A stretch of 64,000 bases of DNA, taken from positions 1 to 64,000 of the forward strand of contig NZ_NKXO01000012.1 in the NCBI RefSeq assembly GCF_002843425.1. The letters are read 5' to 3'. The translations under genes were made by a program, and so were the position numbers. The notes under the pieces are model-generated. The model was given only the letters and a program-made list of their open reading frames with translations, did no database searches and was not told the DNA's origin. The stretch is from Raineya orbicola. GTDB lineage: Bacteria; Bacteroidota; Bacteroidia; Cytophagales; Thermonemataceae. Shown here piece by piece: positions 2,626-50,337 of this stretch. Position 1 is the stretch's first letter; each line of letters begins with the position of its first letter.

Positions 2626-4720
2626 TTTCTAAAACTTGAATACTTACGCCATTATCTTTTTCCGTAGAGCCTTGTATTTGCACACGTTTTTTATCAATTT
2701 TTTTACTTATCAGAAAGTTCTGCACGGCTTTGGCTCTTTTTTCAGCTAAAACCAAATTTTGGGAATCTTGTTTATTTCCTTGTGCAAAAGCAATGATTTT
2801 GATAGCTACGTCAGGATTGTTTTCCATAGTTTTCTGCAAAACCTCCAATTCTGCGAAGCTATTTTTAGTAGGTTTATCGCTATTTTTCTCAAATAAAATT
2901 TGTGTGAGGTATAATTCATTTTTTCGTAAAGGTTTAAGACGAAAAAGCTTGAAAGTACGGTCTTTTTTATCGGCAACTTTTATGATTTCTGCATCACCAA
3001 AATAACCTTTTGTCCATACGGAAACCTCATACGAACCTTTATCCAAATTTTTTTCAAATTTTCCATCAGTATCTTGGTTGAATATTACTTTCTTGGCAGT
3101 AGTATTCACAATTCGCATAAAAACGGGGATTTTAGTTTGCGAAAAATCGTCAATTGCTTTTAAGATTGTAATACTTTTACGTTCGGGGTAGAGGTCAATT
3201 TCCAAAGTATCTCCTTCGGGGTGGCTCGCAATTTGTTCGGGAATAAGGGTGATTTCGGTGGTTTCAAAACCTTGCTTACTCACCGTGATTTGATAGTGCA
3301 AACGTTTATTGAAAAAATGCCTTGTGTTGCCATTTACATCTGTAAAATATACAGCAGTTTTTTGTTCGGTATTGATTTTAATTTCGGTGAGTGGTACAGG
3401 TTCGTTATTAGTTTCGTTGCGTGTGAGAATAATCATTTCATTGAAGCTACTCAATGGTTTTCGGGCAATTACTTCATAAATATCATCTTTGCCGGGTCCA
3501 TCGCCTCGGTTAGAGGAAAGGAAGCCTCTTTTCGTTTTCGGATTGAAGAAAAATCCAAAATCATCTTTAGTAGAATTGATAGGGTAACCTAAATTTACCG
3601 GTGCAAGTAACTTGCCTCCTACGTTTTCTGCTATAAAAATATCTAAGCCGCCCAGTCCGCCGTGTCCGTTAGAAGCAAAATACAAATTTCCTTTGCTATC
3701 CACATAGGGAAAAACTTCGTGCCCGCGTGTGTTGAAAGTTTCGCCGAGATTTTGAGGTTCGCTCCACTTGTCGTTTTCAAAGCGAGAAACCCACAAATCC
3801 ATTCCGCCGTGTCCGCCTGTTCTATCAGAAACAAAATAAAGTGTTTTGCCATCGGGGCTGAGAGCGGGGTGCATCGTAGAAAAATCAGCAGAATTGTGGG
3901 GAAATTCTTTTTCTTTGCCCCAAGTCCCATTTGCTTGTTTGTAGGCAAAAAAGAGTTTTAGTCTATTGAATTTGCTTGTGGAAGCAGGTGTTTTGGCATC
4001 AGCGGTGGGTTTAGACTTTTTTTGGCTGTTGCGGGTGTAAATAATGGTATCGCCTTTGGCTGAAAATACCGCAGGACCCTCGTGGTAGTTTGTTTTTTGT
4101 GAAAGAGGAAAAGGCTTTACTTTCTTTTTTTCATACATAAAAAGTTCCACAAAAGGAGAATTGTCCCACTGAAATTGTGTCCGCGAACGATAGTTTCGGT
4201 TTGAGGCAAAAACAATATTATTGCCACAATATACGGGTGAAAAATCAGATTCCGTGGAATTGAAGGGGGCTAAACGAATTTCATAATTCAAAGAGTCCTT
4301 GTAGAAATCTTGCAGATTTTGATAGGCAAGTGAAAAAGCCAAAGCCCTGCTATCATCTTTTACTTGCTTGGCATAGGCATTGTACCAAAGTTGGGCTTCG
4401 GCGTGCTTGTTGTTGCTGGCGAGGGCTTGGGCGTAATAAATTTTATCTTCGGGGTCTGTAATGGGTGAATGTACCACTTTGGCATACCAAATTTCTGCAT
4501 TTTCGGTATCTTGCAATTTACGGTAGCAGTGGGCAATTTTTTCTTTGATAATAATATTGGCTGTGTCGTTTTGAAAGGCTTTCTGATATAACTCTAATGC
4601 TTTTGCATATTGCATTTTTTTGTAAGCCTTCTGAGCCTCTTCAAAGTTTTTATCTGCTTTGGGTTGTGCCCAAAGTCCAAAGCTCAACAGAAATAAAGTA
4701 AGGCTGATAAAATTTTTCAT
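2576..4720 (-). CDS. porE: PorE-like T9SS envelope protein (TPR, PD40 propeller, CRD, OmpA)
   Basis: 714 residues from the ATG at 4720, chosen over an upstream in-frame ATG at 4735 because it begins a clean signal peptide (MKNFISLTLFLLSFGLWAQ). Domains in order: TPR helices (about 25-160), a WD40-like PD40 propeller (about 170-430, with repeats such as HPALSPDGKTLYFVSDR and NLYFASNGHGGLGGLDI), a carboxypeptidase-regulatory-like beta domain (about 440-520), and a C-terminal OmpA-like domain (about 600-700). This four-part architecture is that of PorE (PG1058-like) of the type IX secretion system, a periplasmic protein thought to anchor the machine to peptidoglycan. The OmpA domain keeps the RAKAV helix, but the usual Gly-His-Thr-Asp segment reads AFAQGNKQDS. 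Confidence 0.8.
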   Translation of the reverse strand: MKNFISLTLFLLSFGLWAQPKADKNFEEAQKAYKKMQYAKALELYQKAFQNDTANIIIKEKIAHCYRKLQDTENAEIWYAKVVHSPITDPEDKIYYAQALASNNKHAEAQLWYNAYAKQVKDDSRALAFSLAYQNLQDFYKDSLNYEIRLAPFNSTESDFSPVYCGNNIVFASNRNYRSRTQFQWDNSPFVELFMYEKKKVKPFPLSQKTNYHEGPAVFSAKGDTIIYTRNSQKKSKPTADAKTPASTSKFNRLKLFFAYKQANGTWGKEKEFPHNSADFSTMHPALSPDGKTLYFVSDRTGGHGGMDLWVSRFENDKWSEPQNLGETFNTRGHEVFPYVDSKGNLYFASNGHGGLGGLDIFIAENVGGKLLAPVNLGYPINSTKDDFGFFFNPKTKRGFLSSNRGDGPGKDDIYEVIARKPLSSFNEMIILTRNETNNEPVPLTEIKINTEQKTAVYFTDVNGNTRHFFNKRLHYQITVSKQGFETTEITLIPEQIASHPEGDTLEIDLYPERKSITILKAIDDFSQTKIPVFMRIVNTTAKKVIFNQDTDGKFEKNLDKGSYEVSVWTKGYFGDAEIIKVADKKDRTFKLFRLKPLRKNELYLTQILFEKNSDKPTKNSFAELEVLQKTMENNPDVAIKIIAFAQGNKQDSQNLVLAEKRAKAVQNFLISKKIDKKRVQIQGSTEKDNGVSIQVLEIDENNQEEPLKSIFDD

Positions 4721-46525: not shown

Positions 46526-48820
46526 TTATTTGCTTATCTTTTGTACTTTTATTTCACCATTGGCAAGCCAAATTCTGGCAGAATAAATACCTTTGGCAAG
46601 GTGTTTTACAGAAAGAATATTTGTTTTTTCCGCTTCTAAAAGAATCTGTCCCAAATGATTGTAAAGACATATTTTTTCCACAGGTACTGCCGAACTCACT
46701 TGCAAAACGCTTTCCATCGGATTAGGATAAATCAAAAACTCTTGATGGGGTTGCAAATGGTTTATGGGGTCAAAAGTGGTGAATTTCCAAGTGCTTTCTC
46801 CTGAAAATCCTGCAAAAAAGTTCATTACCCTATCTCTTACTACTTTATTTTCCATTTCTACAAAGTAGCTTTGGGCAGGCTGAAAACTTTGAGGTGCTTT
46901 CAGACGTAATTTTTTGCCGTTAATGCTTACACCTGCTCCGTTTATTTCAAATTCGTGAAAAATAGCATTGTTTTCAGCATTTTTTACCCAAATTTTACCT
47001 GTACCTGCAAAAATATTTTCATCAAAAGTAACTTCCAAAGGGCTATCTATTGCTACTTGGGTAGCCAAATGAGCAGGACGCAACTCTACAATTTGTGGCG
47101 GATTATCTTCTACAATAAGCGTATTGTCGTAAGTTAGAGTGCTTTTGGCAACTAGAAACACACGAGGGTCAAAACTGATGCTTGCAACTTGCGTAGCAAA
47201 AGGGATTTTATGTTTCTGAAAATTAGCATTTTGAGCAAAGCGTACAATGGTAGTATTGCCATTGATGTCAGTGATAGCAAGTTCAAAAGGCATCTTGAAA
47301 AAAGGTGTAACCGAAGGTTTTGAAGTGCTTTGCTCTGAAATTAGATGAAAATAGCCATCTTTCCAATTCCAAGTAATTTTGTAAGTAGGATAGCCTTCAC
47401 CTCTGAACCATTGAGGCAAAAAATCTTGCGTAAGATTTACACCTGTTACACTCTGCACCACTCCTGCAAAAAGATTGTAATTCACATTTTGATGCTTGTA
47501 AGTATTTGTGAAAGTATTAACTGCTTGCCAAAAAAGGGCATCGTTATTGACAAGATAGCGAATCATATGTATCAGGCAAGCTCCTTTTTGGTAAATGAGA
47601 CGGCTATCAAACATTGCCGTAGTATTGAGCGAATCAGCCAAATATACACTGCCGCCGGGTTGGCTCATTACGTTGTTTCGCCAATTGCTGTAGGTATTCT
47701 GAGCAGAAGTAAGGCTCACAAAATGCTCACGATACAGATATTCAGAGTAAGTAGCAAAACCTTCGGTAAGTCCTATTTCGCTGAAAGAAAACAGCGTAAG
47801 GGCATCTCCAAACCACTGATGAGCAAGCTCGTGGGCTATCACGGTATTCGGAAAGCCCATCATAGAAGACATTGTTTGATTTTCCAGATAGAAATTATGC
47901 GGCACTTGGCAATGCCCATATTTTTCATTAGCAAAGGGATATTCGCCAAAAAGCTCGCAAAACTTTTCAAGAGTAGCTTTGGTTTGGTTCAGATTGGTTT
48001 GGTTGGCAGTGATAGAAGCACTATCGTAAAGATAGTTGATGATAGGAATAGTTTTAGAGTTAAAGTTCGCATTTACAATGTAATCAGCGTATTCGCCTAC
48101 GGCAAAAGAAATCAAATAATAGGCGATAGGATATTTACTTTCCCACTCATAACGCAATTTGCCGCCTCCTACATTGACAATTTGTTTCAGTACCCCTTGC
48201 GAGCCTACTCGGTTAGTGGCAGAAGTAGTGATATAAACTTTTACGGAATCGGCTTTATCGGCAAGAATTTGCTTAACAGGCATCCAATCGGCAGTGCCAT
48301 AGGGCTGGCTCATTGTGTAGGTGTATTTTTTGCCATTAGAGGCGGTTCTTTGACAAAAACCTGCATCGGGGTTGCTATTATCTACGGGTCCATTGCCGCT
48401 ATAATAGATTATTGCTTCAAAAAATTCTCCTTCATTGATAGCGGCTATTAAATTTACACGAATTTCGTTATTAGAGTGTGTAATAGCCGAACCCGTGTGC
48501 GTAATACTTTTTACCACTACCGAGCTAATTGTATAATTAGGGTGCAATTCAAAGGCAAACGTAGTAATATTGTCATTGGCTTGGGCAAAAATTCGTACAT
48601 TACCTGAAATAAAAGTAGTGTTGGTTTCTACGTTCAGATTCAGATGATATTGCTTTACATCATAGAGCATCATTTTGTTGTAAAGGTCTTGGGAGAAATT
48701 GAGCCGTTCATTTTGCAAGCGGGCTAAATGAGTGTGATTTAAGCAAGGTTCTTCCAGATTTTGGGCTTGGGCAGTGAAAATGAAAAAAAGTCCCAAAAGA
48801 AAAGTAAAAACTTGTTTCAT
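46526..48820 (-). CDS. secreted M1-family (gluzincin) aminopeptidase with T9SS sorting domain
   Basis: 764 residues from the ATG at 48820, which begins the signal peptide MKQVFTFLLGLFFIFTAQAQ; a longer frame to 48904 has a basic, unsuitable N-terminus. The zinc site is HELAHQW (His330, Glu331, His334) with the third ligand Glu353 in LTEGFATY. The Gly-x-Met-x-Asn motif of cytosolic M1 enzymes is not seen. After the catalytic domain comes a Big_5-like Ig domain (about 600-700, VELRPAHLATQVAIDSPLEVTF) and a type A T9SS domain (FLIYPNPMESVLQVSS to the end). It would release N-terminal amino acids from peptides at the cell surface. The small RNA at 48992-49058 lies upstream on the same strand. Confidence 0.9.
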   Translation of the reverse strand: MKQVFTFLLGLFFIFTAQAQNLEEPCLNHTHLARLQNERLNFSQDLYNKMMLYDVKQYHLNLNVETNTTFISGNVRIFAQANDNITTFAFELHPNYTISSVVVKSITHTGSAITHSNNEIRVNLIAAINEGEFFEAIIYYSGNGPVDNSNPDAGFCQRTASNGKKYTYTMSQPYGTADWMPVKQILADKADSVKVYITTSATNRVGSQGVLKQIVNVGGGKLRYEWESKYPIAYYLISFAVGEYADYIVNANFNSKTIPIINYLYDSASITANQTNLNQTKATLEKFCELFGEYPFANEKYGHCQVPHNFYLENQTMSSMMGFPNTVIAHELAHQWFGDALTLFSFSEIGLTEGFATYSEYLYREHFVSLTSAQNTYSNWRNNVMSQPGGSVYLADSLNTTAMFDSRLIYQKGACLIHMIRYLVNNDALFWQAVNTFTNTYKHQNVNYNLFAGVVQSVTGVNLTQDFLPQWFRGEGYPTYKITWNWKDGYFHLISEQSTSKPSVTPFFKMPFELAITDINGNTTIVRFAQNANFQKHKIPFATQVASISFDPRVFLVAKSTLTYDNTLIVEDNPPQIVELRPAHLATQVAIDSPLEVTFDENIFAGTGKIWVKNAENNAIFHEFEINGAGVSINGKKLRLKAPQSFQPAQSYFVEMENKVVRDRVMNFFAGFSGESTWKFTTFDPINHLQPHQEFLIYPNPMESVLQVSSAVPVEKICLYNHLGQILLEAEKTNILSVKHLAKGIYSARIWLANGEIKVQKISK

Positions 48821-48941
48821 AGGCGTTTTGCAAAGATTTTTGCCCAAGTTACAAATTTTTTTTGACTTTTTATGTAACCTTTTGAAAATTCTTGCGTAAT
48901 ACAAATAAAAGGGTATCCTTATTCTATGGCGAAATGTAGCG

Positions 48942-49039
48942 TTTCAGTAGAGCTTTGAAGGAAAAAACTTTATTTTCTCTTTTTTTCCTATAAAAAACGA
49001 AAAGCCCGCAAGAAACTTCCGGGCATTTCAGTAGAGCTT
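48942..49039. repeat. direct repeat of a 14-base core, 84 bases apart
   Basis: TTTCAGTAGAGCTT occurs at 48942-48955 and at 49026-49039. The similarity extends about 40 bases, since both are preceded by GC and followed, after a variable stretch, by AAACTTTATTT. Read on the minus strand the core is AAGCTCTACTGAAA. The right copy lies inside the candidate small RNA, just before its terminator stem. The left copy lies after the terminator. Confidence 0.75.
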
Positions 49040-49058
49040 AAATCTCAAACTTTATTTC
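48992..49058 (-). ncRNA. candidate small RNA of about 65 nt, unannotated type
   Basis: A consensus promoter (49064-49093) predicts a minus-strand transcript beginning near 49058. About 35 bases later comes a terminator: GCCCGGAAG (49024-49016) pairs with CTTGCGGGC (49012-49004) with one mismatch and a TTT loop, followed by TTTTCGTTTTTT. The body contains the AAGCTCTACTGAAA core repeated further downstream. There is no open reading frame with a start and usable length. It could instead be an attenuator in the leader of the aminopeptidase gene, whose start is about 170 bases beyond the terminator. No known RNA family is recognised. Confidence 0.6.
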
Positions 49059-49063
49059 CGTTA

Positions 49064-49093
49064 CAAAGTTACGCAACTTTTACGTGTTTTCAA
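49064..49093 (-). promoter_or_regulatory. promoter of the candidate small RNA
   Basis: Minus strand: TTG (49093-49091), 19 bases, TAACTTTG (49071-49064). An exact fit to the Bacteroidota consensus. Confidence 0.7.
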
Positions 49094-49299
49094 AAAAAAT
49101 ATTTGCTTTTTTTTCAGGCTATTAGTCTAAAAATTGTATTTTTTAAGATAGAAAATAATTTTTATTTTGTAAAAAGTTATTTTTAGATGCTAAAATTATA
49201 CAAATTTCTTGTTATTTTTTTTTGTAAAATACTCATTTTGTAGAAATTAAAACATTTTTTGTTCTTATTCAAAACTACAAAAAACACGTGTAATTTTTT
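49094..49299. other. AT-rich intergenic DNA downstream of thiL
   Basis: About 200 bases with many A and T runs and no reading frame of note. I see no terminator for thiL here with a GC-rich stem. Nothing else is supported. Confidence 0.5.
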
Positions 49300-50337
49300 T
49301 TATTTTTTTTCTTGAAAATGTTGCCAGCCTTGTGCTTGTATTTTTACCAAACTGCCTGAACGTAAAACTAAATGTATATCCTTTTCAGGTTCGGTAAAAT
49401 AGCCGATGGTACTAATTTCGGGGTGTAGTTTAATTTTCTCGTAATCCTCTTGCCTAATGCTAAAAAGTAACTCGTAATCTTCACCGCCATTCAGGGCGGC
49501 AGTAATGGGGGAGATGTTAAAATCATTTATGGCCGTATCATAGGTTTCTTGGGCTATGGGCAGTTTATCCTCATAAATCATTGCTCCTAAACCCGACTGC
49601 TTGCAAAGATGTAAAACCTCCGAAGCCAAACCATCAGAAATATCAATCATTGCCGTAGGTGTTACGCCTAAATCGGCAAGTTCGTAGATAATATCAGTGC
49701 GAGCTTCGGGACGAAGTTGCCTGCGAACTACATAATCCCTACCTTCTAATTGAGGTTGCATTTGAGGATTTGCTAAAAAAACTTGCTTTTCACGCTCCAA
49801 AATCTGCAAACCCATATACGCCGCACCCAAATCACCCGTAACGCAAATAATATCACCCTTGCGAGCTGTACTTCGGTAAGTGATTTTTTCTTTTTCCGCT
49901 TCCCCCAAAGCTACCACTGAAATAAAAAGACCACTTCGCGAAGCAGTAGTATCGCCCCCTACCAAATCTACTTTGTAGTTTTGGCAAGCTGTGTGTATGC
50001 CTTCGTAAATTTCTTGCAAAGCCTCTACCGAAAAACGATTACTTACTGCCAAAGAAACAAGCACTTGTGTAGGACGAGCATTCATAGCGGCAATATCTGA
50101 AATATTGACGGCTATGGTTTTGTAGCCTAAATGTTTCAGTGGCATATAAGTTAAATCAAAGTGTATGCCTTCTACGAGCAAATCGGTAGAACAGACTAAA
50201 TATTTTTCGCCCATATCCCATACGGAGGCATCGTCTCCTACTCCTCTGATAGTTTGTGGGTGAAAGTGTTTTGTTTTTTCGGTAAGAACTTTTATCAAAC
50301 CAAATTCGCCAAGTGTGCTGATTTCTGTGCGTTTCAT
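49300..50337 (-). CDS. thiL: thiamine-monophosphate kinase
   Basis: 345 residues from the ATG at 50337, chosen because MKRTEISTLGEFGLI is the usual beginning; the longer frame to 50406 adds an unrelated basic segment. Motifs of the PurM-like fold: IRGVGDDASVW (nucleotide and Mg), CSTDLLVEGIHFDLTYM, KTIAVNISDIAAMNARPTQ, DLVGGDTTASRSG, ICVTGDLGAAYMG, and the C-terminal MIDISDGLASEVLHLC and LNGGEDYELLFS. It converts thiamine phosphate to thiamine pyrophosphate using ATP. Other thi genes are not near. Confidence 0.95.
   Translation of the reverse strand: MKRTEISTLGEFGLIKVLTEKTKHFHPQTIRGVGDDASVWDMGEKYLVCSTDLLVEGIHFDLTYMPLKHLGYKTIAVNISDIAAMNARPTQVLVSLAVSNRFSVEALQEIYEGIHTACQNYKVDLVGGDTTASRSGLFISVVALGEAEKEKITYRSTARKGDIICVTGDLGAAYMGLQILEREKQVFLANPQMQPQLEGRDYVVRRQLRPEARTDIIYELADLGVTPTAMIDISDGLASEVLHLCKQSGLGAMIYEDKLPIAQETYDTAINDFNISPITAALNGGEDYELLFSIRQEDYEKIKLHPEISTIGYFTEPEKDIHLVLRSGSLVKIQAQGWQHFQEKK

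Follow-up and report, generated by a model that had tools for sequence, protein, structure and literature searches.

A short intergenic element on the minus strand of a Raineya genome (Bacteroidota, Cytophagales, Raineyaceae), situated between thiL and the gene for an M1-family peptidase, is very probably a real, uncatalogued regulatory RNA. Its complete copy, designated unit 1, is read here, with moderate confidence and from comparison of genome sequences, as a gene for a stand-alone, lineage-specific small regulatory RNA of Raineya. The window, that is the whole stretch of DNA that was analysed, spans 64,000 nucleotides. Within it, thiL ends with a stop at 49300 (minus strand; TIGR01379, 7.4e-94) and the peptidase, which carries a C-terminal T9SS sorting domain, occupies 46526..48820 on the minus strand, with its start at 48820 (PF01433, 2.7e-21; PF18962, 4.2e-8; TIGR04183, 2.6e-7). 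An initial annotation had proposed a small RNA with a complete promoter-body-terminator layout in the interval between the two genes. The promoter, core, GC-rich stem and tail that it described are all in place on the minus strand, and the idea of an uncatalogued RNA with this layout is supported: searches of Rfam (release 15) at gathering and at permissive thresholds returned no matching family.

Unit 1 is headed by a predicted promoter of the sigma-A type of Bacteroidota (49064..49094, minus strand), in which TTTG (49094-49091) is separated by a 19-nt spacer from the -7 box TAACTTTG (49071-49064), directly followed by TAAC and then by GGAAATAAAGTTTGAGATTTAAGCTCTACTGAAATGCCCGGAAGTTTCTTGCGGGCTTTTCGTTTTTT. 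The arrangement TTTG-N19/20-TAnnTTTG is found in all four Raineya species, with a spacing of 19 that becomes 20 only in one of them, designated G002. The boxes are kept amid diverged flanks and always stand exactly 4 nt before GGAAAT. A TAnnTTTG box has been mapped at -12 to -5 in Flavobacterium psychrophilum (PMC9723704), and the +1 of unit 1 is therefore placed at G49059: this is exactly the position at which cross-species conservation begins. Sigma-A would thus start transcription at 49059 and the intrinsic terminator would end it at 48992, yielding a predicted RNA of 68 nt (48992..49059, minus strand). The length of about 65 nt given earlier needs only a slight correction, as the +1 is set 5 nt beyond the -7 box.

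The invariant 5' part of this RNA is made up of GGAAAUAAAG, a weak hairpin and the core CUACUGAAAU. The hairpin, AGUUUGA-GAU-UUAAGCU (49035..49051, minus strand), is predicted by folding and is rivalled by the pairing AGU..GAG/CUC..ACU; its sequence is invariant within the genus (n=4) and so shows no covariation. Between the hairpin and the terminator lies the core CUCUACUGAAAUGC (49023..49036, minus strand), which is identical in the four species and most of which recurs in every copy of unit 2, the second copy described below; the 14-base core read from the sequence, AAGCTCTACTGAAA, occupies 49039-49026 on the same strand. The intrinsic terminator (48992..49024, minus strand), recognized by folding and by compensatory changes, takes the form GCCCG-G-AAG-UUU-CUU-G-CGGGC followed by UUUUCGUUUUUU. 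Its stem pairs GCCCG with CGGGC (49024-49020 and 49008-49004) and continues, beyond a G-G mismatch, with AAG/CTT; the tail TTTTCGTTTTTT, ending at 48992, contains an interrupted T run. A generic terminator scan does not flag this terminator, presumably owing to the mismatch and the interruption. As a whole, the unit 1 RNA folds better than shuffled sequences (z -2.4). The earlier remark that no reading frame is present requires qualification: an ATG frame of 12 codons lies within the terminator hairpin. It is the sole one, however, and its end varies by species, and a small peptide was rejected as a product of unit 1.

The conservation of unit 1 was surveyed in four Raineya genomes, that of the window and three others, G002 among them, and the unit is present in each. 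A plain DNA search recovers it independently in the genus genomes with E values of 1e-21 to 1e-86; the model R1 also matches it in all four, with E values of 4e-20 to 4e-21 that are not independent, as the model was built from these same four sequences. From the +1 onwards, the four species share the same 40 nt, an uninterrupted run of 40 invariant positions. In the adjacent peptidase gene, 13% of the fourfold-degenerate sites are invariant across the four species, pairwise identity at such sites is 28-56%, and no invariant run of the codon alignment is longer than 11 nt. In G002 two pairs of the terminator stem are altered on both sides, in a compensatory manner, and an A-U pair takes the place of the G-G mismatch. 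Taken together, the kept promoter boxes, the invariant 40 nt and the compensatory stem changes indicate selection on an RNA that is transcribed and terminated. The initial annotation had held that a lack of conservation in close relatives would speak against its proposal; the outcome was the opposite, with conservation in each of the four Raineya genomes.

In three of the four species thiL lies upstream on the same strand and ends ∼240 bases before the element, an arrangement that would suit an ordinary intergenic thiL terminator accompanied by a chance promoter-like sequence. This explanation is highly improbable. Upstream of the element, G002 instead has a TatD-like gene (named from its sequence) that is oriented divergently, and the element is nonetheless unchanged there; hence it is not the thiL terminator. 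Furthermore, a terminator has no need of 40 invariant bases ahead of and into its stem, and the reading is contradicted by the fourfold-site comparison as well as by this invariance and by the gene order of G002. Despite the different upstream gene, the order unit 1, unit 2, peptidase is unchanged in G002 and the spacing is similar. Each of the four species has a peptidase orthologue downstream of the element, the only neighbour constant across them, with a distance of 220-239 nt from the +1 of unit 1 to the peptidase ATG.

A degenerate, promoterless second copy, unit 2 (GAAAATAAAG...AAGCTCTACTGAAACGC; 48937..48977, minus strand), lies 70-90 bases downstream of unit 1 in all four species, in the leader of the peptidase gene; its version of the core, at 48955-48942, falls outside the interval of the initial annotation. 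Unit 2 keeps only the bipartite motif AAATAAAG...CTCTACTGAAA, laid out as AAATAAAG, a variable stretch and then AACTCTAC(T/C)GAAA or AAGCTCTACTGAAA. The bipartite match amounts to 18-19 of 19 positions in every species, a level attained by none of 3000 shuffles. Inspection by eye disclosed no promoter before unit 2, whose terminator has decayed or been lost: what has been retained is therefore the bipartite motif and not a complete gene. A small hairpin between the motif halves is possible in each unit, although individually weak, as 17-61 of 500 shuffles were equally good. The two units share one sense, which rules out unit 2 as a pairing partner of unit 1; if unit 2 is functional, a third party must recognize both copies. 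Its selective retention suggests that something recognizes AAAUAAAG-N9..18-CUCUACUGAAA in both.

The main rival to a stand-alone RNA is that the peptidase is controlled in cis, by a factor that unit 2 has in common with unit 1. Unit 1 would then be part of the peptidase leader, most transcription would stop at its terminator, a factor bound to the core of unit 1, of unit 2 or of both would set the extent of read-through and the 68-nt RNA would be the terminated product. Consistent with such a leader, the two units remain next to the peptidase in the four species even where the upstream gene differs, the distance to the ATG is confined to the narrow range given above, unit 2 would be transcribed only by read-through since it lacks a promoter, and the T run of the terminator is interrupted. 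We nevertheless consider it unlikely, given that no alternative structure convincingly sequesters the terminator arm, that the peptidase has a promoter-like box of its own, and that the one partial relative of the element outside the genus, in genome G004, is not upstream of the peptidase gene, and that the homologues of the peptidase inspected in other genera are not preceded by the element. Folding of partial transcripts disclosed no convincing antiterminator, which is why attenuation is not favoured: these folds pair only 2-3 bases of the GCCCG arm and reach -4.4 kcal/mol, against -19.2 kcal/mol for the full RNA. The element does share with attenuator leaders a short terminated transcript that precedes a codirectional gene, but it differs from them in the missing antiterminator, in having neither a conserved leader peptide nor an Rfam riboswitch or leader match, and in its partial relative away from the gene. 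Of the two roles originally envisaged, stand-alone RNA or attenuator, the former is thus favoured and the latter is weakened by the folding results, the separate promoter-like box and the position of the G004 relative.

A further alternative is control at the level of DNA, in which both bipartite motifs would be tandem transcription-factor sites for the peptidase promoter and the RNA would be incidental. Both copies of the motif do lie upstream of that promoter in one orientation, with a flexible spacing of the halves in unit 2. However, the conserved block of unit 1 begins exactly at the expected +1 and covers the entire transcribed unit, the terminator keeps its pairing rather than its sequence, and no further copies of the motif were found in the genome, all of which renders this reading improbable.

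The preferred interpretation, a stand-alone small RNA, draws its sequence-based support from a conservation that is confined to the promoter boxes and the transcript, from the compensatory stem changes and the folding score, and from the partial relative in G004, which has a terminator of its own at an unlinked place. Such an RNA would act in trans via its invariant 5' part, either by base-pairing to mRNAs or through a protein that it binds, and may titrate a regulator that also recognizes the peptidase mRNA leader made by read-through. Several points tell against it: a purely trans-acting RNA would not need the peptidase as its one constant neighbour, no antisense site near a start codon is common to different species, no RRM_1 protein was found in the genus, and with only four genomes the 5' hairpin has no backing from covariation. 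Pairing of the RNA with the peptidase leader was no better than with shuffled sequences in any species and worse in most. Among 115 antisense sites for the core, none near a start codon was common to different species, and complements of the hairpin segment were not enriched (65 places versus 72 for the reversed control). RRM_1 (PF00076) was absent from all four genus genomes in a search whose control detected it in Bacteroides. A variant that combines the two copies has copy 1 released as a terminated small RNA and the promoterless copy 2 in the leader, the former titrating the regulator of the T9SS-secreted peptidase; this built-in decoy arrangement is doubtful. Separately, Raineya sp. SKYG86, one of the three other genus genomes, harbours on the minus strand of L306 the sequence TTTTTCAGTAGAACTC, complementary to the core, ∼66 nt before the start codon of a gene for a secreted protein with a carboxypeptidase-regulatory-like N-terminus; the site was not seen in the other species.

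Beyond the genus, relatives of the element are scarce. Model R1 over 291 genomes of the order and model R2 over 395 of the class yield one credible relative between them. The remaining matches inspected beyond the family are ordinary terminators or coding and chance matches, and no relatives were found in viral contigs. The exception, in G004, belongs to another genus of the Raineyaceae: at L133:3764-3830, ATAAAGTTTGAGATTTAAGCT is followed at once by an unrelated terminator. This partial relative keeps the 5' hairpin sequence exactly, lacks the CUACUGAAA core and sits in a gap of ∼500 bases between convergent genes, with no clear sigma-A promoter ahead of it. It is unlinked to the peptidase, whose G004 gene is on another contig, so that the association seen in all four Raineya genomes does not extend to it; upstream of the peptidase homologues outside the genus, the element is absent in G004 and in the four others inspected. 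The 19-mer AAAGTTTGAGATTTAAGCT has just five exact occurrences across 84,980 genomes, of which three are in Raineyaceae, and because of this rarity homology of the G004 relative is likelier than chance resemblance. Further loosely similar stretches are visible on L133 near this relative, at 3494 and 3536. Within the Raineya genome of the window, the expectation that the core might recur upstream of other terminators was not borne out: apart from unit 2, the sole exact copy lies inside a coding frame, and the close matches inspected likewise lie in coding frames.

Comparison with known systems places the Raineya RNA as a probable lineage-restricted small regulatory RNA without an Rfam family. 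FopS of Bacteroides thetaiotaomicron is a 65-70-nt RNA with a single-stranded 5' end and a terminator, and its structure has, according to the paper, been deposited in Rfam (PMC11697453). The Raineya RNA resembles FopS and GibS (PMC11697453) in size (65-70 nt in those RNAs), in a sigma-A type promoter (FopS), in a conserved 5' part succeeded by an intrinsic terminator and in the presence of more than one copy. In contrast, Raineya has one intact copy and not 14, the invariant 5' part holds a weak hairpin, unlike that of FopS, and no RRM_1 protein of the RbpB type was found in the four genomes. Neither a FopS nor a GibS model was among the gathering or permissive Rfam matches of unit 1, and by these two tests, the Rfam match and the RRM_1 protein in the genus, it is not a member of this group. 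Rfp18 of Flavobacterium psychrophilum is a genus-wide small RNA linked to metalloprotease expression, described with at least three stem-loops and with trans targets (PMC9723704), and offers a precedent for a small RNA that influences secreted metalloproteases. Likened by description, both are genus-wide RNAs of Bacteroidota with a connection to a metalloprotease, through its expression in one case and through an adjoining secreted metallopeptidase gene in the other; they differ in the stem-loops, of which at least three are described for Rfp18, and in the trans targets described for Rfp18, no target having been found for the Raineya RNA.

To our knowledge, regulatory RNAs have been mapped in only a few Bacteroidota, and a limited literature search turned up no examples from Cytophagales. 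The element described here would encode a short RNA that is open to testing; it is conserved much more strongly than its surroundings, and the type species of the genus can be cultured. Its worn second copy, reduced to the bipartite motif, provides a concrete hypothesis as to which bases are recognized.

The peptidase gene itself is preceded by a putative promoter-like -7 box, TAACTTGG (48844..48851, minus strand), ∼24 nt before the ATG. In Flavobacterium a TAnnTTGY (SM5) box precedes gliding and T9SS-related genes (PMC9723704), and TAACTTGG resembles it in sequence. Moreover, GTTACAT stands ∼20 bases ahead of a TAAnTTnG-like box at 48844-48878 (minus strand), just before the peptidase ATG. 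This arrangement is almost alike in the four Raineya species, is similar to the Flavobacterium SM5 box and, judging from its letters, possibly represents an alternative sigma-factor promoter.
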